Below the pieces are notes generated by a model. It saw nothing but the letters and a program-made list of their open reading frames with translations. It was not told the DNA's origin and ran no database searches. From NCBI GenBank assembly GCA_030747175.1, contig JASLLE010000007.1, positions 1 to 64,000 on the forward strand: a DNA stretch of 64,000 nt, written 5' to 3'. A program made the position numbers and the translations under genes. Of the stretch, positions 41,950 through 57,842 are shown in pieces; position 1 is the stretch's first letter; every line of letters starts with the position of its first letter. The stretch comes from Dehalococcoidia bacterium. GTDB taxonomy: Bacteria > Chloroflexota > Dehalococcoidia > Lucifugimonadales > Lucifugimonadaceae.

Positions 41950-42399
41950 ATTGTTCGTCGGAAAGCGTTGCCGTCTACGTAGTGAGCGGTGGATCGAGCG
42001 CAGCCTATACGAACTCTGACCCTTTCTGGCAGCCAATCTGGCGCGTCACATCCGCCGATTGCGCAATCCCTTCTCCCGTCGCGCCCGTCAAACGACCGGA
42101 GAACTGGCGGCTCAATGCCACGGTCACAGGATCGTCTCCCGACAGAGCAGATGCCATACGCCATCTGGTTCGTAGCGCCTCTTGTCACCCTGCTGTGTCA
42201 GACCGATTTTGGCGTTTCCGCCGGTGTCACGGCATTCGGTCTCGCGCGACGGACATACAGACCTCACATTAGTGATCCGGAACGTCATGCGCCGTTCACG
42301 ATTCCCGGCCTAGCTTCATGGTGGCGTTCCGCGCTCTGCGGGTGCGCTGTGACCACCTGGTCGAGCAATGCGTGCCCAACGCTAACTGGAGAAATCGAA

Positions 42400-44337
42400 T
42401 TGCTGCGTCTCGGGCTCCAGAAACGGATCATGCTGTACGTGGCGATCGGGCTCGTCGGGATGTTCGCCGCCGTGTACTGGCTTGGTACGCGAACGATCGA
42501 GACGGCGACCGAAGCGGCGTTTGAAGAGCGACTCGCCATCGCAGAGACGGTAGCCGGCGCTCTAAGCAACGAGTTCGATCACGCCATCCAAGACGCTGTT
42601 GAAGAGACGGAATCACTGAACGGCGACGTATCTCTGGCGGATGCCACCGAAGCAGTGCAAGCCGCTTATGAACACCTGTCCGAGACCGATAATTTTTCGT
42701 TCTTTGATATCGCTGGCGTGTACATCTCGAGCTATTCAGGCGTGACGGCATTTGCCGGTCCAGAACAGGCAACGAGCCGTGCCGAACGCCTTCTACCGGA
42801 GGTCATCACGGTTGCGGCGGGCGGCAATTCCGGACTGCGGATTTTCTGGGATGACGCCAGTGACCGGGGCGGTCTGGCCACACTATCGATGCCCCTCGTT
42901 TCCCTTGACGGGGCGCGCTGGGGCCGGGTCGAGGTAGATACCGTGGCGGTGTCTTCGAGCGGTCCATTCGTTCCGTATGGACACCTGACGCTTTCTTCCG
43001 GTCCCGATGATCCCCGCCCGGACCTCCCGAGCGTTGCCGAATACCGGCTTGAGGTGATCTCCCCAACCGGCAGGACGCTTCTCACCGCGGGCTCCGACGC
43101 ACCGCTCGGCGAGAAGAGCCTGCACTTCGAGGCGTTGTCCGAGATGCTCTCCCGTAACACGGGTGGAGTGATGGTTCATCGAAATCCGGGCGGAGGGCTG
43201 CGAGACCATGTGATGGCCGCCGTGCCAGTACCTCGTTCCGATCTACTGCTGGTCCTTCTTCAGGACAAAGACGTTGCGCTGGCGCTGGCCACCGATTTCC
43301 GGACGAAGCTGACGCTCTATGCAGGGATTGGGATGATGGCGGCGCTGCTGGTCGCATGGTTCACGACCCGTCACGTTGTGCGCTCCGCAGAAGAGTTAAC
43401 GGTGGCCGCAAAGCGCATGGCGGCCGGGGACCTCGAATCGCCGATACGCACCCACGCCCAGGACGAGATCGGGGAGTTATCAGAGAGTATCGAGTCGATG
43501 CGGCAACAGCTCTCCAGCGCCAGCGCTGAAAGGGAGACCGCCCGGCGGGAGCTTGAGGTGCGTGTAGTGGAACGAACGCGCCAGCTCCGCGAGGCTTTGC
43601 GACAGGCAATCTCGGGCCAGGAGGGGGAGAGGCAACGACTGGCGCGCGATCTGCACGACGAAGTGGCGCAGGAGCTGATCATCCTGGCGCGCGGGATCGA
43701 CGGCGTCCGTCTCCGGGCATCGGATCAAAACGAGGAAGATCTGGCCGAACTGGAGCATATGGAGGAGCTGGCTCGATCGACACTGGACACCGTCCGTCGA
43801 TTTTCCCGGAACCTTCGTCCATCCGTGCTGGATGACCTGGGACTGGTCCCGGCGCTCCGCTGGATCGGCGCCGATACCAGCGATCGGACAGGGGTGGATG
43901 TAAAGGTCACGGAAGACGAAGATGTGCCGGACCTGGACCCTGACACGGCACTCGCATTATTCCGGATCGCACAGGAATCCGTGCACAATATCGAACGGCA
44001 CGCCGAGGCGACGAGCATAAGTATTATCGTCGGCGGCGGAGACGGCCGGGCCACGCTTGCGGTAACGGACAACGGCCGGGGATTTGACGTTTCCGGACGG
44101 CGTGACGAACTTGAACGCGGCGGTCATCTCGGAATCCTGGGGATGACGGAACGCGCTGAACTCGTCGGCGGCAGGCTGGTCATCACCAGCCATGCGGGAC
44201 AGGGGACGACCGTGAAGGCGACGGTGCCACCTGCGCCGGTCTCCGGTGGTGATCCCGTTGCGGTGGATCTGTCTTCAGTCGTCCGAGATATCGACAACCC
44301 CGCGTCGGACGGCGGCCACGACGGCCTCGGTGCGTGA
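42400..44337 (+). CDS. NarX-like sensor histidine kinase (HAMP, HisKA_3, HATPase)
   Basis: TTG start after GGAG; TM-sensor-TM; RLARDLHDEVAQELIILARGIDGVR; FRIAQESVHNIERHAEAT; GHLGILGMTERAELVGG. Confidence 0.92.
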   Translation: MLRLGLQKRIMLYVAIGLVGMFAAVYWLGTRTIETATEAAFEERLAIAETVAGALSNEFDHAIQDAVEETESLNGDVSLADATEAVQAAYEHLSETDNFSFFDIAGVYISSYSGVTAFAGPEQATSRAERLLPEVITVAAGGNSGLRIFWDDASDRGGLATLSMPLVSLDGARWGRVEVDTVAVSSSGPFVPYGHLTLSSGPDDPRPDLPSVAEYRLEVISPTGRTLLTAGSDAPLGEKSLHFEALSEMLSRNTGGVMVHRNPGGGLRDHVMAAVPVPRSDLLLVLLQDKDVALALATDFRTKLTLYAGIGMMAALLVAWFTTRHVVRSAEELTVAAKRMAAGDLESPIRTHAQDEIGELSESIESMRQQLSSASAERETARRELEVRVVERTRQLREALRQAISGQEGERQRLARDLHDEVAQELIILARGIDGVRLRASDQNEEDLAELEHMEELARSTLDTVRRFSRNLRPSVLDDLGLVPALRWIGADTSDRTGVDVKVTEDEDVPDLDPDTALALFRIAQESVHNIERHAEATSISIIVGGGDGRATLAVTDNGRGFDVSGRRDELERGGHLGILGMTERAELVGGRLVITSHAGQGTTVKATVPPAPVSGGDPVAVDLSSVVRDIDNPASDGGHDGLGA

Positions 44338-44952
44338 ACTCACCCTCAACTTTGCGAATATATTCCGCATGTGCGTCTGAACCGTCCGAGGACTCAGACC
44401 CAGTTTGTCCCCGATCAGCGCGTTCGTGAATCCATGTGCCGCCTGGGTTAATACCTCGGTCTCTCGTTCGCTGAGGTATTCGACATCGAGTGACTCACCC
44501 GGAGCAGAGGCTGGCTGGCCTGAAATGCGCGCCATGAGTTTCCTCATCACCGTGGGGTGCAATACAGGCTCTCCAGCGTGGACGGCGCGCACCGCTCGCA
44601 CGACCTCCTCCGCCGGTACGTCCTTCAAGAGGTAACCGGCGGCGCCGGCGTCAACGAACGCGAACACGTACTCATCGTCTTCGTACGCGGTGAGCACGAG
44701 CACATTGATGTCCGGCCAGCGTTTCTTGATCTCCCGGGTTGCCTCGATGCCGTTCATCTCGGGCATCCCGATATCCATGATCGCCACGTCAGGGTGCTCC
44801 CGGCCAGCGATCTCTATCGCTTCTACTCCGGTCGCGGCTTCTCCAACAACTTCGAAATCGATTTCGCGCTCCAGGAGATTACGCGTGCCCTCTCGGACTA
44901 CTGCGTGATCCTCAGCCAGCACGATTCGGATTGTCGACATTTCCTGCGTCAC
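44275..44952 (-). CDS. NarL/FixJ-family response regulator
   Basis: IRIVLAEDHAVVREGTRNLLE receiver; LSERETEVLTQAAHGFTNALIGDKLGLSPRTVQTHMRNIFAKL LuxR-type HTH. Confidence 0.95.
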   Translation of the reverse strand: MTQEMSTIRIVLAEDHAVVREGTRNLLEREIDFEVVGEAATGVEAIEIAGREHPDVAIMDIGMPEMNGIEATREIKKRWPDINVLVLTAYEDDEYVFAFVDAGAAGYLLKDVPAEEVVRAVRAVHAGEPVLHPTVMRKLMARISGQPASAPGESLDVEYLSERETEVLTQAAHGFTNALIGDKLGLSPRTVQTHMRNIFAKLRVSSRTEAVVAAVRRGVVDISDD

Positions 44953-45183: not shown

Positions 45184-46158
45184 ATGGATAGGGAAGAGAA
45201 CCTGAAAAAGTGGCATGTAAGCCGCCGGCGGTTCCTTCAAATGGCCGGCGCCCTCGGTGCGACCGCTATGGCCGGCGTCGCCCTGCCATCCGCGCTACGC
45301 GACGGGTCCGGCGTGTCTGTAGCCGGCGAAGACCAGCTGGGCCCCGGGGAAGCCGCGGCACAACGTCGATTGCGCAAGTGGATGATGATCATCGACTTGC
45401 GAGCGTGCGACGGTTGCCAGTCTCAGGATTCCCCTCCGAAGTGCTCCGAGGCCTGCATAGCAGGCCACTTTGTGCCGGAGCCGATGCAGTGGATCGAAGT
45501 GTACGAGCACGAATTGAGCTCCGAGGCCGAGCTCCGTCCTGACGAACAGCCTGACCTGCCCATCAACGGCACTCGTTTTATGCCCACCCCCTGCATGCAG
45601 TGCCAGAACCCTCCATGCGTAAACGTCTGTCCCGTGGGAGCGACGTGGTCTACGCCTGAGGGACCGGTGTTGATCGATCAGGACCGGTGCATCGGCTGCC
45701 GCATGTGCATGGCCGCCTGTCCCTACGAACGCCGCTTCTTCACATGGGGCGAGCCGCCGATTCCACCCGAGTCCCTCTTCGTGGAGCGCAGCCCGGAGCA
45801 CCAGGTGCCTCTCAAAAAGGGCGTCGTCGCCAAATGCGACTTCTGCCCGGAAATGGCGCGTTCCGGACGACTCCCCTTCTGCGCCCAGGCCTGTCCCCAG
45901 AACGCCATTTACTACGGCGATCTTGAGGAAGACATAGCCACCAACGGGGACCAGGTCGTCAAGGTGAGTGATTTCCTGGCGGAAAACTCCGCCTTCCGTC
46001 ACAAGGACGAGCTGGGAACTCGGCCACGGGTCTACTACGTCCCCGGCCACGGCGAGCTTGCAGGTCGTAAGCCGACCGATCACGGTCTCCAGGAAGTCAG
46101 CTGGGATTACCAGAGCATCAGGAAAGGATCCAAATCGTGGAAGCGCTCGGGCACGTAA
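45184..46158 (+). CDS. Tat-exported 4x[4Fe-4S] ferredoxin-like electron-transfer subunit (PsrB/TtrB/HybA-like)
   Basis: SRRRFLQMAGALGATAMAG Tat signal; CDGCQSQ, CMQCQNPPCVNVCPVGA, CIGCRMCMAACPYERR, CDFCPEM...CAQACP. Confidence 0.92.
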   Translation: MDREENLKKWHVSRRRFLQMAGALGATAMAGVALPSALRDGSGVSVAGEDQLGPGEAAAQRRLRKWMMIIDLRACDGCQSQDSPPKCSEACIAGHFVPEPMQWIEVYEHELSSEAELRPDEQPDLPINGTRFMPTPCMQCQNPPCVNVCPVGATWSTPEGPVLIDQDRCIGCRMCMAACPYERRFFTWGEPPIPPESLFVERSPEHQVPLKKGVVAKCDFCPEMARSGRLPFCAQACPQNAIYYGDLEEDIATNGDQVVKVSDFLAENSAFRHKDELGTRPRVYYVPGHGELAGRKPTDHGLQEVSWDYQSIRKGSKSWKRSGT

Positions 46159-47534
46159 GCGCCAGCGAAGCGCGACTCCAAGAGCGGGTAGAAGCCCCTC
46201 TGCTGGGCACCAGCCGTGCGTTCTGGATCTGGGTTGCGGTTCTCCTGGTGGCGATCGCCTGGGGAGGTGTCGCCTACTTCTTGCAGGCGCGTGACGGCCT
46301 GTACGTGACCGGGATGCGCGACCGGATCATGTGGGGCCTCTACATCGCGCTGTTCGTCTTCTTCATCGGGGCGAGCATGGCCGGGACCTTCGTATCGGCG
46401 CTTCTCAGGCTGACCCGGGCCACCTGGCGCGCACCGATAATCCGCGGCGCGGAAATCATGACCGTGGCGGCGTTGATAACGGCCTCACTGTTCGTGCTTT
46501 TCGACATCGGCCGCCCGGACAGGCTGCACCACTTCCTGCTTTATGGCCGCTGGGAATCACCACTGATCTGGGACGTCTACGGCCTCGCCACCTACATGGC
46601 GGGCAGCATGCTCTACCTGTACCTGGCGATGATCCCGGACCTGGCGTTCGTGAGCGATCGGCTCGGGGACGGTTTCGGGACCATCAAACGCGGCTACTAC
46701 CGCCTGCTCTCCATCGCGTGGGCCGATAGCGACGAGCAGCGGGCGACTCTGCATCGCGCCATCGTGGTGATGACGATCGCGATGGTTCCGGTGGCCGTCA
46801 TGATGCACACGGTCACGTCATGGATATTTGGCATGACGCTGCGCGAGCCGTGGAACAGCGCCATGTTCGGCATCTTCTTTGTGGCCGGAGCCATCTATTC
46901 CGGCATCGGGCTGATCGTGATCCTCATGGCGGTGATGCGGCGCGCGTACCGCCTTGAAGAGTTCATCACGGACCGTCACTTCCTCTACCTCGGCTACATG
47001 CTCGCCGCTTTCGCCGTGATCATGGTGTTCTTCAACGTCAGCGAATTCGTGACCCTCGGTTACAAGCTCTCGGCGGACGCCACGTTCAACCTGAACCAGA
47101 TGGTCAGCGGCGACCTTGCCCCGGTGTTCTGGACATACGTGTGGGCGGGACTGGCGCTGCCCATCCTCGTCATCCTCATCCCGTACACCCGTAACCTGAA
47201 GGGCATCCTCGTTGCCGCGATCGCGGCCAACGTAGGAATGTTCCTGGAGCGCTACTTCATCGTCGTTGGCGGGCTTCGTGTTCCTCTCAACCCGTATGAA
47301 CCGGCGACTTACACGCCCTCGTGGGTTGAATGGTCCCTGATGGCCGGCGGCGTCGCCATCTTCCTGTTGCTGGTGACGGTGCTCTTGAAACTCCTGCCGG
47401 TCGTCGCGCTCTGGGAGATGCACGAAGAGGCGTTCGCGAGCGGGCCCGCCACGAGCCCCGGGGGATATGCCGATCCCTCCGAAACGTTCGCGGGCGTTGC
47501 CGATCCTGGGATCGTCGCGGGGGCGAGGTCATGA
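46137..47534 (+). CDS. NrfD/PsrC-family polytopic membrane quinone-interacting subunit
   Basis: 465 aa, about 9-10 TM; follows FeS subunit with 22-nt overlap. Confidence 0.9.
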   Translation: MEALGHVSASEARLQERVEAPLLGTSRAFWIWVAVLLVAIAWGGVAYFLQARDGLYVTGMRDRIMWGLYIALFVFFIGASMAGTFVSALLRLTRATWRAPIIRGAEIMTVAALITASLFVLFDIGRPDRLHHFLLYGRWESPLIWDVYGLATYMAGSMLYLYLAMIPDLAFVSDRLGDGFGTIKRGYYRLLSIAWADSDEQRATLHRAIVVMTIAMVPVAVMMHTVTSWIFGMTLREPWNSAMFGIFFVAGAIYSGIGLIVILMAVMRRAYRLEEFITDRHFLYLGYMLAAFAVIMVFFNVSEFVTLGYKLSADATFNLNQMVSGDLAPVFWTYVWAGLALPILVILIPYTRNLKGILVAAIAANVGMFLERYFIVVGGLRVPLNPYEPATYTPSWVEWSLMAGGVAIFLLLVTVLLKLLPVVALWEMHEEAFASGPATSPGGYADPSETFAGVADPGIVAGARS

Positions 47535-48145
47535 CTCGTCCGGGATCCGGGTTCCTCATCGGTATGGTGGTCGCGTCAGGCCTGCTCTGGTCGGGGTTGA
47601 TGACCGCCGCCGCAGATCAGCCAGAGCCGCAGGTGGTTCTCGGTTTTCAGCCGGAGGTTGAAGCCGGGGGAACGATCGCCATATCCGCGTACCTTGTGGA
47701 TCCGGCGGGCAACCCCGTCGTCGGCGAAGAAATCGCCTTCGCAATCGCATCATCTTTCCTGAACGTCGATGGACAGATGGAGATCGGCAGCGCGACCACT
47801 GATCTGGATGGACTCGCCCTGCTGCCGTATGCGCCGCGGATCGAAGGCGATCGCGTAATACGGGCGCAATTCACCGGCAACGATGTGTTCGCGTCCGCCG
47901 AGGCAAGCGAAACGCTGCTCGTAACGCCGGGTCTCCGGCTGCATGAAGAGTTCAGCCCTCTGAGGACCCCCGGCGCCAACATCTGGATGGCCGCGGGCGT
48001 GCTGATCGTCGTGTGGGGTGTCTTCCTGTTCATCTGCGCACTGATCTGGCGGATCGCTTTTCTTGGCGTTAATGGGGGAGTCGGTGAGGGAGTCAGCAGT
48101 GGCACGCCTCACGTCGTGACCGGGGCCGAGGCGTCCGATGACTGA
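47531..48145 (+). CDS. Signal peptide / Ig-like domain / C-terminal TM protein of unknown function
   Basis: Start [20 protein letters not shown]; Ig-like body ([26 protein letters not shown]...[16 protein letters not shown]), C-terminal TM. Confidence 0.75.
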
Positions 48146-49073
48146 GAAACGCAAATTCGGACGGTCTGCATTCGTAACGCCTGTCGCCCTCTCCGGCGGG
48201 ATCGCCGCGGTGGCACTGGTACTCATCTTCCAGATCACACTTCGGCCGTGGGCGGGCGCAGACAGTGGTACCGACACGCACCTGAACATGAGCGACCCGA
48301 TGTCCGACTACACCAGGAGTGAGCTGGCGGTCGTCGGCGCTCCGGAGATCGCCCCGATCGGCTGGGTACGGTCCGGGGACGGACAAGAGTCCGATGATAC
48401 GGGCCTGACCGGCTACGTCGCGTACGGCTGTGCAAGCTGTCACGGCCTGGCAGGCGAAGGCACAGCATCCGGGCCGCCGGTTGTCGGCAGTAGCCTTCGC
48501 CGGACCGGCACCCTGTCCCGTAAAGGCCCGGGGGGAATGCCCGTATATGACGACGTGCATCTCGTTGACGCAGACCTGGACGCCATCGCCGCGTACATAA
48601 CGGGCCTCCCGGAGATCCCGGAGGTGGCTGATCCAGTACCCCAACCCGCAGCGACTCCGTTCCCGACCGCGACGCCCCTGCCGACGGCCACGCCGGTCCC
48701 AACTCCAACTCCTCAGCCAACACCCACTCCCCTGCCGCCGGACGCGCCCACACCCACGCCCGGACCCACGTCTACGCCCGCGCCCGCGCCCACACCAGAG
48801 CCCACTCCCGATCCGGGCCTTGTCGCCGCAGCACGTCAGCTTTACATCGACGTCGGCTGCGACCTCTGCCACGGGGTTGGAGCCGAAGGTGGGGACGACG
48901 GACCGGCTATCGAGGACGCGACGGCGAAGGAGATAGAGGACAGCGTCCGAGACCCGCAGCGCGATCCCGACTCCATCTACCCGAAAGGCATGACGGAATA
49001 CCTGCTGACCGACCTGTCCGAGGCCGAACTGATCGACATCATTTTCTACCTGAGGAACCTCCCCGGAGAGTAA
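48138..49073 (+). CDS. Diheme cytochrome c with Pro/Thr-rich linker
   Basis: [11 protein letters not shown] and [11 protein letters not shown]; linker [54 protein letters not shown]. Confidence 0.92.
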
Positions 49074-49075
49074 GC

Positions 49076-50125
49076 ATGAGGCGAGTAGTCAGAGAGAAAT
49101 CAGCTTCCGGACGGACATGGTTGTTCGCCGTCGGTTCCACGTCGGCGCTGATCCTTTTCTTCGCATGGGCATGCACCGGAGAGATCGGGGCCGACGGTTC
49201 AGCCGGACCGATCGGGCCAGCCGGACGACCGGGGCTTACGGGCGATGCCGGCCCACAGGGGGAGTCTGGTCAGCAGGGCGAGACGGGGGCCGACGGGCTT
49301 CCTGGCATAGCCGGACCACCCGGGGCGACGGGAGCAGATGGGATGGACGGGATCCCGGGGGCGCAGGGTCCGGCCGGTGACGCGCCTTCGGACGACATGC
49401 TCGTGGCACTCATAACCGCCGCTCTGGCCGAGTTCGATTTCGCCGGCGGGCCTGTATCCGGCGATTCGGTCCTGGGCGGAAAACTGTTCGACAACTGGCC
49501 GAAGGTCACCGGCGTGACACCGGACGGCGAGCACGGACTGTGGTCCCTGCAATCCACAAACACCCGGACCGGTGAAGCGACATGGCGCTGCAAAGAGTGC
49601 CACGGATGGGACTACAAAGGCGCCGGGGGCGCGTACTCAACCGGGTCTCACTTCACGGGTTTCCTTGGTCTGCTGAAAGCGGGCCGCCTGCTCTCGCAAA
49701 GCCAGATCGTCGAGGTGTTGCACGGCGGTCTTGACGCCCGACATGACTTCACCGAGCTACTGACCGATGAACAGATCACCTCGCTGGCCGCGTTTGTAAA
49801 GACGGAGATCATCAACGAGGCCGAGGTCATCGATTACGACACTCTCACGCCGAGAAACGACTGGGACTTTGACGCAGGGAGATTGCTGTACGCCCGGACC
49901 TGCAGCGCCTGTCACGGAGTCGACGGCAAAACGGTCAACCTGGGCTCCCAGGACAGTCCTGTCTACATCGGCGGACTGGCCAGCGACAACCCGTGGGAAT
50001 TCCTCCACAAGGTCCGCTTCGGGCAACCGGGCACACCGTCTATGCCGGCCGTTGAGGAACGCGGTTGGACTATCGAAGACGCGATCGCGCTGCTCGGCTA
50101 CTCACAGTCGCTTTCGAGTGAATAA
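49076..50125 (+). CDS. Collagen-like (Gly-X-X) stalk diheme cytochrome c lipoprotein, paralog 1
   Basis: Lipobox-like ILFFAWAC; about 23 GXX triplets ([25 protein letters not shown]...); CKECHGWD and CSACHGVD heme motifs. Confidence 0.9.
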
Positions 50126-50292
50126 CTCATGTCTCTTCTACGACATATACATCTTGTAACTCCCGGACCGATTCCGGGGTCGAGGGAAGTTCGATCGTGC
50201 ACGGGCACCGCCCGGCACGAGCAACTGCGCGCCGGCGAACCGGCGCGGAACGGCTGCCGCGGAAATGCCTCCAAGAAAGGAGTGGGTGGTCG

Positions 50293-51387
50293 ATGACCAG
50301 AAAGATTTGGCTTGCAGTCGCAGGAGCGGCTGTACTAGCAGTGATTGGCGTTGCCTGTGCGGGCGATGATGGGGCGGATGGGGTGCCGGGCGCAACCGGT
50401 CCCGCAGGCGCACAGGGCGACACGGGGCCGGCAGGCGCCAAGGGTGATACCGGAGACGCAGGAGCGAAAGGCGATACCGGGGCGACGGGCGCACAGGGTG
50501 AAACCGGCGCCGCAGGAGCCACGGGCGCGGCCGGAGCCACCGGCGCAACGGGCGAGGCCGGAGCCGACGGGGCAACCGGAGCGGCCGGGGCAGACGGCCT
50601 CGACTGGCCGGGGCTTATCCCGGCTGCGTACAACGACGCAGACCCGATCGCCGGCGGCGCGGCTTATGCAAAGTGGTGGAAAACTGACGGAGGTGGGACC
50701 GGCATACAGCCAACCGGACCGGCGGCGGATTTCATGCGTTGCAAGTCGTGCCACGCATGGGACGGCAACGGAAATCGCTCGTCTTACGCCAACCGCACCG
50801 GACAGAGCAGCGGCAAAGCCACGCGTCCAGACGTGTCCTCCGTGGACCTGCGCGCGGCTGCGCTGAGCGAGACCCCGAGCGAGTTGTTTGACCTGATCAT
50901 GCGCCCGGCCGGACGCCCGTTGCTCCAGGAAAGCAACGCGCACCCGAACTACAGCGCAGAAGGAGGACTAACGGACGACCAGGCATGGAACATAGTCAAG
51001 TTCATGAAGGAAGGGTGGATGGAGCCGACCGCGCTCTATGACCTCACCGTCACCGGCGAGCAGATGTCGTGGGACTACTCCACTACTCCGCGTACGCTAA
51101 TCACCCCAACGCTGACCTACTCGAATGTGGGCGCAAAGGGTGACGCCGTCAACGGCGCAGCCGTGTACACGCAGGCTTGTTTCGAGTGCCACGGCGTGGA
51201 TGGGACCGAAATCGACATCGGAGGCCGATCGCTGGGCCAGTTCATTCGGGAGAAGCCGCACGAGGCCTGGTTCAAGGCCAAGTTCGGCGAACCCGGAAAG
51301 ATGGACCCGGCGATGGTTACCGTGCTGAGTGACATGCAAGACCTGTATGCAGCACTCGCAGACGTAACCAACTTCCCGGACCCGTAG
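50293..51387 (+). CDS. Collagen-like (Gly-X-X) stalk diheme cytochrome c lipoprotein, paralog 2
   Basis: [22 protein letters not shown] lipobox; about 27 GXX triplets; CKSCHAWD and CFECHGVD heme motifs. Confidence 0.92.
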
Positions 51388-51429
51388 GCGGGAGATCCGG
51401 GCAGCCTTGAGTGCCCGGAACGCCTGTGT

Positions 51430-51461
51430 CCGCCCCGCCGTGATCTTTCACGGCGGGGCGG
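51430..51461. terminator. Strong hairpin (terminator or processing signal) between cytochrome cluster and hemA
   Basis: ccgccccgccgtga-tctt-tcacggcggggcgg perfect 14-bp stem; no clear T-tract. Confidence 0.7.
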
Positions 51462-51571
51462 CACGCACGCTCAAGAGTCGACTGCCGGACCGCGCGTCAA
51501 AAACACTCGTGCCGGTCCGAGCTCGGGATCGCCAGATAACTGGAAATGTTGAGAACTACAGGAGCGGGCAG

Positions 51572-52921
51572 ATGATCGCTTCAATGAGAACCGCGGCCAG
51601 AGAGCCTGTTCACGCGATCGGGCGAAACGGCGAACCTCCAATCGATCGCGGATTCGAGCACGAGGTTCTCATAATGGCGGGGATCAGTCATCAAACTGCC
51701 AGCGGAACGTCTCTTGAGACGGTGGCGGTGGCGGGGGACGAACACGGCTCGGTTCTCCGGCGGTTACGACAACGGTTCGGAAACGGTGTGCTCCTGTCGA
51801 CGTGCAACAGGACGGAACTTTACGCGACAACGCGCGAGCCGGAATCCGCGATTCCCGAGCTGCGAGAAATCCTGCACGCGCTCGGGTGTCGGGGCGAAGG
51901 GGTTTCGGATCCCGATATTGACCAACAGATCTACGTGTTTCGCGGGATCGAGGCGGTGAACCATCTCTTCTCGGTCGCGTCCGGCCTGGACTCGGTGATC
52001 CTCGGCGAAACTCAAATCGCCCATCAGGTCGCCCGAGCTATCGAAATGGCGGTCGAAAATGACACCGCCTCCCAGGCCGCTATTGATATATTTGACCGGG
52101 CGATTCGGACCACGCGAAGGGTCAGGGGCGAAACGACGCTGAATCGAGGCAGAGCGACAACAGACTCGATAGCGGTCGACCTCCTGGCCGAACATCGAAA
52201 CGGATTTGACGGCGCGAGCGCGCTGGTTGTCGGGGCCGGAGAGATGGGAAGATCGGTCGCTCACAGGCTTCGGCGGGCAGGCGTGAGCGAACTCAAAATT
52301 GTGTCGAGGACGTATTCTCGTGCCAGGACACTGGCAACCGAAACGGAATCCATCGCGATTCCGTTCGACCGGCTCACTGACGGTCTAAACAGCTCGGACG
52401 TATGGGTGACATGCACATCATCCGCCGGAGCGCTGATCGATGCGGCAGCCATAAGACAGGCCGCTGATCACATGCAGGACCGCCGCATCGTCGTCGCCGA
52501 TCTCGCGCTGCCGGCGGACCTCGACAAAGATGCTGCTTCCGAGGATGTGATTGATTACATCGACCTCCAGGATATCGGGCGGGCCGGAGCGCGGAGACGT
52601 CACGCCTTACGCGCTCAAGCGAACAAGGCTCGAGAGATCGTCGACTCCGAAATAGCGAAAGCCATCATGAACGCGGAAGCCCGGCATTCGTTACCCACGG
52701 TAAAGGCCCTGGGCAAGAAGGCCGAAGCCATCAGGCAAAGCGAGGTCCGGAAGGCGATCCGCATGTTGGGCTGGAGCAGCGGATCAAACGCGGAGTCCGT
52801 GGTTGAAGCGATGTCGCAGTCGATCGTGAAGAAACTGATTGCTCGTCCTATTTCGTCCGCGCGAGAAGACGAAAACAGCGCGAACACCGTGTCAAAAGTT
52901 TTCGGGATGGATGGGATCTAA
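51572..52921 (+). CDS. hemA: Glutamyl-tRNA reductase
   Basis: MAGISHQTAS...; LLSTCNRTELYATT; HLFSVASGLDSVILGETQIAHQVARAIE; VVGAGEMGRSVAHRLRRAGV. Confidence 0.95.
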   Translation: MIASMRTAAREPVHAIGRNGEPPIDRGFEHEVLIMAGISHQTASGTSLETVAVAGDEHGSVLRRLRQRFGNGVLLSTCNRTELYATTREPESAIPELREILHALGCRGEGVSDPDIDQQIYVFRGIEAVNHLFSVASGLDSVILGETQIAHQVARAIEMAVENDTASQAAIDIFDRAIRTTRRVRGETTLNRGRATTDSIAVDLLAEHRNGFDGASALVVGAGEMGRSVAHRLRRAGVSELKIVSRTYSRARTLATETESIAIPFDRLTDGLNSSDVWVTCTSSAGALIDAAAIRQAADHMQDRRIVVADLALPADLDKDAASEDVIDYIDLQDIGRAGARRRHALRAQANKAREIVDSEIAKAIMNAEARHSLPTVKALGKKAEAIRQSEVRKAIRMLGWSSGSNAESVVEAMSQSIVKKLIARPISSAREDENSANTVSKVFGMDGI

Positions 52922-53291
52922 CGTGGACGGGATCACCCGAGGGATTCACTGGATGGGATCTGTCGGATCTTGATGCCGGGTTGCCCGAGGCGCCAGGTAA
53001 AGGAAGATCATCGGTCCGTAGCGCGCTTGTGATGTACCTCCTCGGGAGGTCGCGACAGGTACCCGCAGAATCAGACACCGTTTTGCCGGCGCACACGGCG
53101 GGGGCGGACTTTCGACTGTAGGCGGGGACCAAGTGTCACCGGCGAAGCCAGGCTGAAATAGCGCATGCGGAAGCGCCCGATCCGGGATTTGCCCCCGGTC
53201 CCCACGATTGCACCGGGAAGTCCACGGCGTTCAGCGCTATCAGCACGAATTCCTCACGCGTTCCTCATACGCTCAATGTCACACTTGTCAC

Positions 53292-53726
53292 ATGACGAAT
53301 CGAACAGGCATCGAGTGGCTGAGCCTGAACACGGCCTCTTCGACGCCCCTTCACCGGCAGATCGATGAAGGGGTCAAGATCGCCATCGCCATGAACCGGC
53401 TTCGCGCTGGCGACAGGCTGCCGACCGTTCGCGGGCTGGCCGACCATATGGGAATCCACCCCAACACCGTGTCCCGCGCCTACTCCGGCCTCGTGAGAGA
53501 CGGCGTGCTGGTCGCACAACCCGGCAGGGGTACGTTCGTTCCATCGGAGGTCGATGACCTCGGCGCAGAGCGGCAGGTGCGACTTGACTCCATCATCACC
53601 AGGAGCCTGGTTCGTGCCCTGAGCCTCGGCTTCCCGCTGGAACAGATCGAGGCGAGTTTCACGAGGGAAGTAGCCGGGTTCCGGGAAGACATCGAGGATC
53701 CGGTGAAACGAGGCATCCGATCGTAA
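53292..53726 (+). CDS. GntR-family (YtrA-like) transcriptional regulator
   Basis: TPLHRQIDEGVKIAIAMNRLRAGDRLPTVRGLADHMGIHPNTVSRAYSGLVRDGVLVAQPGRGTFV. Confidence 0.93.
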   Translation: MTNRTGIEWLSLNTASSTPLHRQIDEGVKIAIAMNRLRAGDRLPTVRGLADHMGIHPNTVSRAYSGLVRDGVLVAQPGRGTFVPSEVDDLGAERQVRLDSIITRSLVRALSLGFPLEQIEASFTREVAGFREDIEDPVKRGIRS

Positions 53727-53764
53727 GCGATCGAACGTCGACGGCATGCTTTGCATATGGTCCG

Positions 53765-54622
53765 ATGCTGCGGGGTGTGACGATCAGGCGCTGGCTGGCA
53801 TTTATCGCCCTGGTCGCCCTCGCCGGTGGGGTTGTCGGGTGCGGAAATACACGGGATACGAACGTGATCCTCGCGACGACCACGAGCACCTTCGACACCG
53901 GTCTGCTCGATGTACTGATTCCCGAATTCGAAAAGGAAAGTGGATATAACGTGAAACCGATCGCCGTCGGGACCGGCAAGGCCCTCGCCATGGGCGAGCG
54001 CGGCGAAGCAGATGTCCTGCTGGTCCACGCGCCCGCGGCCGAGGCCGAGTTACTGGCAAGCGGCGCCGCATTAGACCGGAAACCGGTCATGCACAACTTT
54101 TTTGTGCTAGTCGGTCCTCAGGCCGATCCCGCCCGGGTTATGGCCACCTCTTCTGTGGGGAATGCCATGGCGTCCATCGAAAGGGCGGGCTCCGATTTCA
54201 TGTCGAGGGGAGACGATTCAGGCACCCACAAGATGGAGATGAGCCTGTGGGATCTTGCCGGGGTAGCGCCCGGTGGACACTGGTACCAGGAGACGGGCCA
54301 GGGGATGGGCGCAACGCTTCAGATAGCGTCCCAGAAATCAGCGTACACGCTCTCCGACCGCGCCACGTACATCGCGCTGAGCAACGTCCTTGACCTGGGA
54401 ATCGTTTCCGGGTCAGACGGCGACCTGCTGAACACCTATTCCGTTCTTCAGTTGAACGGCGATCGATTCTCCGGTCTGAACGTTGACGGCGGAAGAGCGT
54501 TCGCTGAGTTCCTGCTGTCCATGGAAACCCAGGCGACGATCCGTGACTTTGGTATCGACAGTTACGGCGAACCGTTATTCATCCCCGGGCCCGCTAGCGG
54601 GCCGGGTGAGCCGGCCAGTTAA
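53765..54622 (+). CDS. tupA: Tungstate ABC transporter substrate-binding lipoprotein TupA
   Basis: Lipobox GGVVGC; ILATTTSTFDTGLLDVLIPEFEKESGYNVKPIAVGTGKALAMGERGEADVLLVHAP; SRGDDSGTHKMEMSLW. Confidence 0.9.
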   Translation: MLRGVTIRRWLAFIALVALAGGVVGCGNTRDTNVILATTTSTFDTGLLDVLIPEFEKESGYNVKPIAVGTGKALAMGERGEADVLLVHAPAAEAELLASGAALDRKPVMHNFFVLVGPQADPARVMATSSVGNAMASIERAGSDFMSRGDDSGTHKMEMSLWDLAGVAPGGHWYQETGQGMGATLQIASQKSAYTLSDRATYIALSNVLDLGIVSGSDGDLLNTYSVLQLNGDRFSGLNVDGGRAFAEFLLSMETQATIRDFGIDSYGEPLFIPGPASGPGEPAS

Positions 54623-55321
54623 ATGGAGTTGATCTGGGACGGCATCGTAGAGGCGGTCAGGCTCATCTTTGGCGGCGACAAAGAGGTCGCCGAAATAGTG
54701 TTCCTCACGCTTCGCGTGTCTGGGGCAGCCACCGTCCTCGCCACGCTCATCGGAGTACCGATCGGCGCCGCGCTGGGCGTCTGGCAATTCAGGGGCCGGG
54801 GCGTCTTGATCAGCATCGTCAACACCGGGATGGGGGCGCCGCCGGTCGTCGTGGGACTCGTCGTGATGATCATGCTCTGGCGCACGGGCATCCTGGGCGG
54901 GCTGAACATCCTCTACACACCGTGGGCGATGGTGTTCGCCCAGGCCCTGATCGCTCTGCCAATAGTCATCGGCTTTTCGATGGCGGCGATCGCAGGGATC
55001 GACCCCGCGTTCCGGCAGCAGATGCTGGCGCTTGGAGCGTCGAGATCACAGGCGCTATACCTGATGGTCCTCGAAGCGAGGCTCGCGATCCTGGCCGCTG
55101 TGATGGCCGGATTTGGCGCCGTCATATCGGAAGTTGGCGCCGTGATGATGGTGGGCGGCAACATCAAGGGCGAGACCAGGGTCCTGACCACGGCCACGGT
55201 GCTCGAATCCAACCGCGGCGAGTTCGGTACGGCCATCGCGCTCGGCGCCATACTCCTGACGCTCGCGTTCCTGGTCATAGCCACGTTAACCATCCTCCAA
55301 CAGAGGGCCAGGATCAGATGA
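54623..55321 (+). CDS. tupB: Tungstate ABC transporter permease TupB
   Basis: Five or so TM; VLATLIGVPIGAALGVWQFRGRG; start abuts tupA stop. Confidence 0.88.
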   Translation: MELIWDGIVEAVRLIFGGDKEVAEIVFLTLRVSGAATVLATLIGVPIGAALGVWQFRGRGVLISIVNTGMGAPPVVVGLVVMIMLWRTGILGGLNILYTPWAMVFAQALIALPIVIGFSMAAIAGIDPAFRQQMLALGASRSQALYLMVLEARLAILAAVMAGFGAVISEVGAVMMVGGNIKGETRVLTTATVLESNRGEFGTAIALGAILLTLAFLVIATLTILQQRARIR

Positions 55322-56415
55322 CCGAGTCGCACGCGATCGAACTCATTGACGTCAGAGTCTGGAAGAACCGGCGGCTGATTCTCGACGTGCCGTCGCTGAA
55401 ACTACCCACTCACGAGACGTTTTCGGTGATAGGGCCGAACGGCGCCGGGAAGACAACGCTGCTACGTATCATTTCGTTGCTTGACCGCCCGGGGGAAGGG
55501 CAGGTTCTTCACGCCGGGCAGAGAATCAGCTCGGGCCGCGAAACTCTCCGGCGGCGACGTCGCCTGGCCATGGTGATGCAGCAGCCTGCTCTTCGTAATT
55601 CGAGCGTCTGGGAGAACGTATTGACCGGGCATCGATTCCGGCACACTCCGAAGGACATCGCATCCCGCAAGGTAGGAGAGTGGCTTGAGCGGCTGGGGAT
55701 CAGCCACCTCTCAGATCGAAATGCCCGGCGGCTCTCGGGCGGAGAGGCACAGCGCGTAAACATGGCGCGGGGGCTCGTACTTGAGCCAGATCTTTTGTTG
55801 TTGGACGAGCCGTTCAACGGACTCGATCAGCCAACGAGACTGGCGCTGATGGACGACCTGTGGCGAATATTGCAAGAGATTCGCACATCCACGGTCCTCG
55901 TTACTCATGACCGGGGAGAGGCACAGGCGCTGAGCAGCTCGGTAGCGGTCATGCTCGACGGGAAGGTAGAGCAGATCGGAGACCCGGACCAGGTGTTTAC
56001 CGCGCCCCGCACCGAGGAGATAGCGAGCTTCGTCGGTGTCGAAAACGTGCTCGCCGCAAAGGTGATCGAATCGAACAACGGGTTGACCACGGCGAGCGTC
56101 GGAGAGGGCCTCGTCTCGCTGGCCGGCGAGTACCCCACCGGCGAAGATCTAGTGCTCGGAATCAGCCCGGAGGCGGTGGTGATAGAGGATCCCTCCGATC
56201 TCGGCGCGACAACCAGCGTCCGCAATCGCATTCCCGGGAGCGTGAGCCGTTTGTTTGAGATGGGAGCGCAGGCCCGCGTAGTGGTTGAATGTGGGTTCCC
56301 ACTCGTCAGCCTGGTACCGGGCAGCTCGGTAGTCGATCTGAGGCTGTCGCCGGGCGCTCAAGTCGTGGCGTCGTTCAAGGCCAGCGCCGTGCACGTCATA
56401 CGGAGTGGGCGATAA
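55318..56415 (+). CDS. tupC: Tungstate ABC transporter ATP-binding protein TupC
   Basis: ATGA overlap with tupB; IGPNGAGKTTLLRIISLL; RLSGGEAQRVNMARGLVLEPDLLLLDEPFNGLD; C-terminal TOBE-like region. Confidence 0.9.
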   Translation: MTESHAIELIDVRVWKNRRLILDVPSLKLPTHETFSVIGPNGAGKTTLLRIISLLDRPGEGQVLHAGQRISSGRETLRRRRRLAMVMQQPALRNSSVWENVLTGHRFRHTPKDIASRKVGEWLERLGISHLSDRNARRLSGGEAQRVNMARGLVLEPDLLLLDEPFNGLDQPTRLALMDDLWRILQEIRTSTVLVTHDRGEAQALSSSVAVMLDGKVEQIGDPDQVFTAPRTEEIASFVGVENVLAAKVIESNNGLTTASVGEGLVSLAGEYPTGEDLVLGISPEAVVIEDPSDLGATTSVRNRIPGSVSRLFEMGAQARVVVECGFPLVSLVPGSSVVDLRLSPGAQVVASFKASAVHVIRSGR

Positions 56416-56525
56416 CCTCATCCAGATGCATTTAGCGAAACCATCAATCCAATAATCGCCCCGGACATGCCCCTTTCACCCCGTTATCTGTCGGTCGATT
56501 GCCCGTCGAACAGAGGAGAAGATCG

Positions 56526-57842
56526 ATGACCGCCCATACTCATCATGATGATCATGTCCACGCTGATGAGGACGACATGATCAGCATCGAGGAGGCCCTT
56601 GAGAGGGTGTTGTCCTACACCTCTGTTCTTCCCGGCGAGAGCCGCCCTTTACTTGAATCGCTGGGGGGCGTTCTCGCAGAAGACATCATCGCCGGGTTCG
56701 ATATTCCGCCCTTGCCCAATTCGGGCATGGACGGGTATGCGGTACATGCCGATGACGTGGCTGGCGCCACCGAAGCGACGCCGATCGAGTTGCCGGTTCT
56801 TGGTGAAGTCGCGGCTGGCGCGGTCCCCTCAGCCCCTCTGGCGCCGGGTGGCGCGATCCGGATCATGACCGGCGCGCCCGTCCCCGCCGGGTCTGGAGCA
56901 GTCGTGCCGTTCGAGGATACGGATGAGATGGAACGGCGGTCGGCGGGAGACGATCTCAAAAAGATAAATGTGCGCAGGGCGCCCAGGCCCGGAGCGAATA
57001 TCAGGCTCGCGGGTGAAGACATCGGCGCCGGGTCAAAGGTCCTGAGCCGGGGCATGACCCTGCGTCCGTGTGACATCGGGCTGGCGGCGTCACTGGGGCT
57101 CACGCACCTGCCCCTTATCAGAAAGCCGGTCGTGGCGATCATCTCGACGGGCGACGAGATCATGGAACCCGGGGAGGAACGCAGGCCCGGGGCAATCTAC
57201 AACTCCAACGCGTACACGATCGCCAGCTTCGTCGCTCGCCACGGGGGCACGCCGCGTATCATCGGTACGGCACGCGACACGGAGGCATCCCTGAATGAAA
57301 TGCTGGATCGCGCGATGGAAGCCGATCTCGTGCTGACGTCGGCCGGCGTATCGCGCGGCGACTACGACGTGGTCAAGGACGTGCTGGCGTCACGCGGACA
57401 CATCGTAAACAGGTCGGTCCGTATCAAGCCGGCGCGGCCGCTGGCGTTCGGGGCGCTGAAAACGGCCGATGGCCGGGATATTCCGCACATCGGCCTGCCC
57501 GGCAACCCTGTCGCCGTCGTGGTGGCGTTCGAGGTTTTCGCGCGGCCCGCCATCCTCGCGATGGCGGGACACACGTCATTGGAGAAGCCCGTCGTGGAGG
57601 CGGTGCTTGAGGATCCGATCAGGAATCCCGATCACCGCAGGGTGTTCGCCCGCGTGGAGGTCTATATCGACCGCGAAACCGGCGACTACCGGGCCAGGCT
57701 CAGTGGCAGCCAGGGATCCGGGGTTCTTACCGCCGCGGCCGCGGCAAACGGACTGGCCATTTGCCCCGAGGACAGTGACGGCCTGAAACCGGGAGATGTG
57801 GCGACCGTACAGATGCTGGACTGGTCCGAGCAGATGCTGTGA
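56526..57842 (+). CDS. moeA: Molybdopterin molybdotransferase MoeA with His-rich N-terminus
   Basis: MTAHTHHDDHVHADEDDMISIEEAL; PPLPNSGMDGYAVHADD; ISTGDEI; TSAGVSRGDYDVVKDVL; GLPGNPVAVVVAFEVFARP. Confidence 0.95.
   Translation: MTAHTHHDDHVHADEDDMISIEEALERVLSYTSVLPGESRPLLESLGGVLAEDIIAGFDIPPLPNSGMDGYAVHADDVAGATEATPIELPVLGEVAAGAVPSAPLAPGGAIRIMTGAPVPAGSGAVVPFEDTDEMERRSAGDDLKKINVRRAPRPGANIRLAGEDIGAGSKVLSRGMTLRPCDIGLAASLGLTHLPLIRKPVVAIISTGDEIMEPGEERRPGAIYNSNAYTIASFVARHGGTPRIIGTARDTEASLNEMLDRAMEADLVLTSAGVSRGDYDVVKDVLASRGHIVNRSVRIKPARPLAFGALKTADGRDIPHIGLPGNPVAVVVAFEVFARPAILAMAGHTSLEKPVVEAVLEDPIRNPDHRRVFARVEVYIDRETGDYRARLSGSQGSGVLTAAAAANGLAICPEDSDGLKPGDVATVQMLDWSEQML

Follow-up and report, generated by a model that had tools for sequence, protein, structure and literature searches.

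A putative molybdenum-free NrfD module with tethered diheme cytochromes, related to alternative complex III, in a Dehalococcoidia bacterium

Introduction

What does an iron-sulfur (FeS) protein paired with the membrane protein NrfD do when no molybdoenzyme is encoded beside it, and where would its electrons go? This question is raised by six co-directional genes (positions 45184-51387, + strand) in a 64,000-nucleotide stretch of DNA, hereafter called the window, from contig JASLLE010000007.1 of a Dehalococcoidia bacterium (GCA_030747175.1). A preliminary description, made from the sequence alone, listed here an exported ferredoxin, an NrfD protein, a membrane protein with an immunoglobulin (Ig)-like body and three diheme cytochromes c (cyt1, cyt2 and cyt3; Table 1), the last two on collagen-like stalks. 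These features and the nearly abutting gene order were confirmed, with cyt3 following after a gap of ~167 nucleotides (nt).

We consider it fairly probable that the cluster encodes a molybdenum (Mo)-free menaquinol:cytochrome c oxidoreductase with tethered acceptors that is related to alternative complex III (ACIII). If this is correct, a reduced but widely recurring branch is added to the NrfD/ACIII family, and the core formed by an ActC-type protein and its FeS partner becomes a general hub with exchangeable partners.

An NrfD protein of the ActC type

The best matches to the window NrfD protein in the PDB are four ACIII ActC chains, which rank ahead of any other solved structure. Residues S135, D140 and R366 (numbered from codon 46155) align with Ser164, Asp169 and Arg395 of ActC, the conserved quinone-site Ser/Asp and gate Arg whose roles have been described (PMC8076601). 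D117 stands where ActC has His139, and the same substitution is seen in PsrC, HybB, DsrP and QrcD. The window NrfD is of the ActC type, and the module is therefore best described as ACIII-related.

Two groups of NrfD scores were observed among 393 genomes of the class, one at ~490-790 bits (the module type, 43 genomes) versus another at 337-390 bits (mostly ActC), with few values between. Nearly all sampled genomes of the window's family carry the ActC group only, whereas the window genome and G086 carry both. A tree of 102 proteins separates Ig-associated NrfD proteins from most of those with upstream Mo and pentaheme genes (SH-like approximate likelihood ratio test, 89-95), with the placement of three long branches unsure and with some entries that lack a called Ig gene falling inside the Ig group, several probably through gene-calling misses.

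The cluster shares with ACIII (ActABCDEF) its ActC-like NrfD and its c-type heme acceptors, and members of the cyt2 family head true ACIII operons in other Chloroflexota. Canonical ACIII was nevertheless rejected, because the cluster lacks the ActA pentaheme, the Mo-like domain ActB1, ActD and ActE, and has a single NrfD with no second NrfD-like subunit ActF. Unlike ActB, which has a [3Fe-4S] cluster and a Mo-like domain, the window ferredoxin is a separate, exported protein with four full 4-Cys motifs, and the cluster adds the Ig protein and collagen-stalked dihemes. A separate ACIII is encoded in the same genome: pentaheme, ActB-like and FeS genes lie at the end of C75, and the rest is carried by C136 as an NrfD pair, ActD (PF11821), a monoheme cytochrome and CcmF/CcmH. 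(A caa3 oxidase on C136 was considered and rejected, the genes in question being CcmF and CcmH.) Since the genome has its own ACIII, the window cluster is an additional, reduced system.

The Ig protein gives Pfam matches to Big_1/Big_3_5 that fall under the cut-off. Its AlphaFold2 model is a confident beta-sandwich (predicted local distance difference test scores mostly >90) with a C-terminal transmembrane (TM) helix. Identity with ActD was rejected, as there is no PF11821 match and Foldseek returns generic Ig-like folds only. The Ig proteins of two relatives (L048:3600-4556 and L050:1162-2199) have an additional cupredoxin-like domain at the N terminus; its C-x3-C-x2-H motif is possibly a copper electron-transfer site.

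Absence of a molybdoenzyme subunit

As had been proposed for the cluster, no Mo/tungsten-bis(pyranopterin guanine dinucleotide) (Mo-bisPGD) protein (PF00384) is encoded in it or on its contig; seven are found elsewhere in the genome. Six of these were classified as NarG, formate-dehydrogenase-like, BisC/TorA-like, Psr/Phs-like, AioA-like and ActB, none being NapA, and the seventh (C56), with an in-frame TGA, stands outside this classification. The Psr/Ttr/Phs complex iron-sulfur molybdoenzymes resemble the cluster in having a four-cluster FeS protein and NrfD, but they include a molybdoenzyme, and the Psr/Phs-like enzyme of this genome has its own FeS and NrfD proteins on C96.

The accompanying premise, that FeS/NrfD pairs normally have Mo or Act partners, was too narrow: the Mo-free complexes NrfABCD, NhcABCD, MccACD and DsrMKJOP, in which FeS and NrfD proteins work with cytochrome partners, were already known (PMC8076601). 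The window cluster likewise combines FeS, NrfD and c-type cytochromes without a Mo subunit. It differs from NrfABCD, NhcABCD and MccACD in that its NrfD is closer to ActC and in having no multiheme NrfA, NhcA or MccA (5, 9 and 8 hemes, respectively). DsrMKJOP was rejected on its scores (155.3 versus 200 bits for DsrO, 130 versus 350 bits for DsrP), and DsrM, DsrK and DsrJ are missing from the cluster. The cluster thus shows no one-to-one subunit mapping to any complex tested, in agreement with the view that it is not a known complex.

Recurrence and exchange of partners

In related genomes, where genes were called with a simple script and genome-scale results rest on searches and selected stretches, the gene-neighbourhood comparison proposed earlier revealed FeS-NrfD-Ig modules at 60 of 131 distinct NrfD loci. 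An upstream Mo gene accompanies 1/60 loci with the Ig gene versus 47/71 without it, and an upstream pentaheme gene 0/60 versus 34/71. Conversely, 34/60 loci with the Ig gene have a LuxR-type regulator no more than five genes away, versus 11/71 without it (Fisher p ~1e-6, not corrected for kinship), and the module often adjoins a two-component system.

The position after the Ig gene varies, being occupied by a diheme cyt1, by a cyt1 fused to an EB_dh domain, or by coiled-coil and TIG-domain lipoproteins; in other variants the Ig protein has a heme or a cupredoxin-like domain fused to it. The lipoproteins are conserved and replace or accompany the cytochromes after the module at L048, L049, L051, L199 and other loci. 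Even within the window's own branch of the tree, loci with cyt2 partners (window, L036, L037 and L039) are mixed with loci that have EB_dh partners (L038, L040 and L056).

Recurrence and partner swapping also bear on the claim of an undescribed Mo-free module. Its Mo-free part stands for the window cluster itself and is qualified by relatives that pair the module with molybdoenzymes. Subunits of the type-II/EB_dh kind are coupled to it in L038, L051 and L056. At two other loci (L037:4003-7070 and L264:11050-14163), napA and a gene for a NapB-like diheme lipoprotein on a Pro/Thr tether lie directly upstream of FeS-NrfD-Ig-cyt1-cyt2 modules, in two genomes of the window's family (G086 and G874).

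Stalked cytochromes and matched tether lengths

All three cluster cytochromes have two CXXCH motifs; in cyt2 these account for four of five Cys residues, the fifth lying in the lipobox. The collagen-like runs comprise 23 (cyt2) and 27 (cyt3) G-X-Y triplets without interruption, where 20,000 shuffles gave at most 9 and 10, and score 38 bits (1e-9) and 53 bits (3e-14), respectively, with Pfam Collagen (cut-off 27.2 bits). Across the heme region cyt2 and cyt3 are 27% identical. The tight cyt2 family was found in 20/393 genomes of the class, with collagen lengths of 0 to 78 residues. All 12 stalked members, and none of the 7 unstalked ones, have a short helix-like segment after the collagen, and it is visible in the structural model of cyt2. 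Judged from sequence, this helix fits the expectation for a trimerisation neck, and the collagen-like stalks are probably trimers. Unstalked orthologues retain the redox domain. One short stretch (G000:C154:36621-36816, in L055) gives collagen-family matches on both strands and is more likely a GC-rich repeat than a gene.

Generic diheme carriers, actinobacterial QcrC and ActE among them, resemble the cyt2 model, with no match reaching E 0.001. A weak fold match to the thiosulfate dehydrogenase TsdA was rejected because cyt2 has no Cys to act as ligand of an active-site heme. In other Chloroflexota a cyt2-family gene opens full ACIII operons (L246 and L247, with ActD confirmed in L247), and a tandem tetraheme of the family is the first gene of Mo-FeS-NrfD operons (L242-L245). 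Because it heads both kinds of operon, the family probably supplies redox partners to ActC-type complexes. Lone cyt2 genes often lie behind a two-component pair or beside a different regulator pair.

The length of the Pro/Thr linker of cyt1 and that of the collagen stalk of cyt2 are similar genome by genome. Linker/stalk lengths in residues are 69/69 in the window, 57/51 (G087), 58/56 (G086), 60/57 (G059), 35/24 (G012), 58/57 (G882), 55/48 (G870) and 55/48 (G874); where the two genes are on separate contigs they are 79/78 (G168), 52/54 (G203), 36/48 (G154), 0/0 (G162) and 17/0 (G165). The correlation is strong across the 13 genomes (Pearson r=0.96, permutation p ~5e-6, uncorrected for kinship, which is close among several of them) and for the 11 that have stalks (r=0.90). 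Collapsing the first ten genomes to six lineages gives r 0.96 and p 0.002. The rule was first seen in five genomes. It was weak evidence at that stage, since loci lacking a cyt2 gene can have long linkers too, and it then broadly held in eight more. At two of these long-linker loci (79/78 and 52/54), the matching cyt2 gene proved to be on another contig of the genome.

Collagen rises by ~0.29 nm and polyproline II by ~0.31 nm per residue. With these textbook values, each tether in the window has a contour length of ~20 nm.

PgcA of Geobacter sulfurreducens is a lipidated triheme cytochrome in which Pro/Thr repeats separate the heme domains (PMC5732950). The Pro/Thr stretch between the hemes of cyt1 is similar, whereas PgcA differs in its triheme content and in lacking a collagen stalk. 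We know of no case in which PgcA is encoded with NrfD. Bacterial collagen-like surface proteins of the Scl/SclB type also display another domain on a Gly-X-Y stalk, but in the window a diheme cytochrome forms the head and a lipobox provides the anchor. The open-access literature that we searched yielded no paper on cytochromes with collagen-like stalks; one draft genome report, seen in part, contains both terms.

Stalked decahemes and the cell envelope

In two relatives, decahemes of the OmcA/MtrC family stand on collagen stalks beside cyt2. In G059 (L267:4400-7417, - strand) a decaheme lipoprotein with a 72-residue stalk adjoins a cyt2 with a 78-residue stalk. The first 100 residues of the two proteins are 82% identical, against 41-54% in three cyt2 comparisons between loci, which suggests a recent copy or a shared trimer. 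In G012 (L044:1989-4982, + strand) a decaheme with a lipobox and a 24-residue stalk is encoded near a cyt2 whose stalk is also 24 residues long, at the same locus as the module. No decaheme of this type (PF22113) was detected in the window genome, which is 89% complete, nor was Omp85, a search that matched 7/14 control genomes. The best reading places the tethered cytochromes on the outer face of a cell that shows no markers of an outer membrane.

Proposed mechanism and alternatives

In the oxidoreductase that we favour, NrfD would oxidise menaquinol close to the membrane's outer face, as its conserved quinone-site residues suggest. Electrons would then travel by way of the exported ferredoxin and its four FeS clusters to the membrane-proximal heme of cyt1, with the Ig protein serving as a structural or docking subunit. 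The second heme domain of cyt1, on its ~20 nm Pro/Thr linker, could shuttle from the membrane base to the heads of cyt2 and cyt3 and back. These two diheme proteins would be lipid-anchored, with their heads held at about equal height by the stalks. From these heads, electrons would go to an exchangeable terminal partner, namely NapAB in the two same-family relatives and plausibly the OmcA/MtrC-like decahemes in the two others.

The earlier proposal of an electron conduit is retained as a Mo-free path from quinol to the exterior with tethered cytochromes, but its mechanism is changed. A collagen stalk holds no cofactors and so cannot conduct over ~20 nm; a mobile heme on a Pro-rich linker of similar length is the more plausible carrier. 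We put forward only tentatively the fuller reading of a collagen-scaffolded conduit, in which electrons would travel from menaquinol through the ACIII-derived module and the linker heme to diheme and decaheme heads on lipid-anchored collagen stalks of matched height, at or beyond the surface of these Chloroflexota cells. If that reading is true, the stalked cytochromes and decahemes with their matched tethers would amount to a physical design rule by which bacteria that have no outer membrane carry electrons tens of nanometres outward from the cell membrane; they also open electron transfer at the surface of uncultured Chloroflexota to direct tests. The findings suggest a little-described wiring of respiration to the cell surface that recurs across related uncultured bacteria.

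Several observations weigh against the oxidoreductase that we favour. The tether rule is post hoc and depends on simple length rules, and two genomes in which heme is fused to the Ig protein (G185 and G476) have stalks but no matching linker. The cyt2-family gene is often located away from any NrfD gene, and cyt3 may have a transcript of its own. The window NrfD has Ile where ActC has Asp253. The search of the incomplete window genome for a terminal acceptor gave no NapA, EB_dh or MtrC-like match.

Four other explanations were weighed. The module might be the quinol/cytochrome half of a periplasmic molybdoenzyme (NapA or the type-II dimethyl sulfoxide reductase family) that is encoded elsewhere or was missed, as the upstream NapA in G086 and G874, the type-II alpha/beta genes and EB_dh-fused cyt1 in other relatives, and tupABC and moeA downstream of the window cluster would suggest. 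We judge this unlikely, given that none of the classified Mo-bisPGD proteins is NapA, that the window genome encodes no EB_dh protein and that most Ig-containing modules have no nearby Mo gene. A little less likely still is electron flow in the reverse direction, with the tethered cytochromes collecting extracellular or periplasmic electrons and NrfD reducing menaquinone, the direction of Qrc and the one assigned to Nhc. NrfD subunits of known complexes do run in both directions (PMC8076601), and the EB_dh-linked variants could serve periplasmic dehydrogenases; the closest homologues (ActC), however, oxidise quinol, the NapA association within the family points to reduction, and cyt2-family genes accompany ACIII operons.

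The ActC ancestry and the likeness of the cyt2 model to generic diheme carriers such as QcrC and ActE (below significance, as noted) would also suit a second quinol:cytochrome c oxidoreductase that feeds cytochrome c oxidase, the stalks merely anchoring a carrier. This we find improbable, as the genome already has an ACIII and such a bypass leaves unexplained both the ~20 nm stalks and the stalked decahemes of relatives. That the collagen-like segments serve in adhesion or as structural elements and only happen to occur on electron-transfer proteins, as their best NCBIfam matches to bacterial collagen-like adhesins might indicate, seems very improbable: stalk length tracks the linker of the redox partner within a genome, the neck helix is present or absent together with the stalk, and it is the redox domain that unstalked orthologues keep.

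Arrangement of the cluster and its surroundings

The first five genes form an unbroken series with three overlapping junctions and a spacing of 2-3 nt between cyt1 and cyt2, and cyt3 has its own AGGAG-like ribosome-binding site. Promoter and terminator matches at the cluster were no more frequent than expected by chance, and co-transcription of the cluster appears likely.

Table 1. Genes of the cluster and adjacent regulatory genes, in window coordinates
Feature	Position	Strand	Details
FeS: twin-arginine translocation (Tat)-exported four-cluster ferredoxin, DsrO/NrfC/PsrB-like	45184..46158	+	Tat motif; 16 Cys in four complete 4-Cys motifs
NrfD/ActC-like quinol-interacting membrane protein	46137..47534	+	best start GTG 46137; Pfam NrfD 1e-42
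Ig-like domain protein, N-terminal signal/TM helix and C-terminal TM helix; module marker	47531..48145	+	ATG ~47531
cyt1: membrane-anchored diheme cytochrome c, 69-residue Pro/Thr linker between hemes	48138..49073	+	hemes at residues 98, 241
cyt2: diheme c domain with short neck helix, lipobox and 69-residue collagen-like stalk; from a cytochrome family spread through the phylum and associated with ACIII	49076..50125	+	
cyt3: lipobox, 81-residue collagen-like stalk, two CXXCH; divergent cyt2 paralogue	50293..51387	+	start ~50293
LuxR-type response regulator, divergent from FeS gene; frequent module neighbour	44275..44952	-	
HAMP/HisKA_3 sensor kinase, frequent module neighbour	41989..44337	+	true start probably near 42400

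The sensor kinase gene is inverted here: in the window the kinase and regulator genes converge with an overlap of ~60 nt, whereas in most relatives they are co-directional. Plasmid and Rfam searches gave nothing useful. On the 3' side of the cluster, the same strand (51407-57842) carries genes for a hemA-like glutamyl-tRNA reductase, a GntR-like regulator, tupA, tupB, an ABC ATPase and moeA/glp, which places the tungstate-transport genes and moeA 2-6 kb from the cluster.

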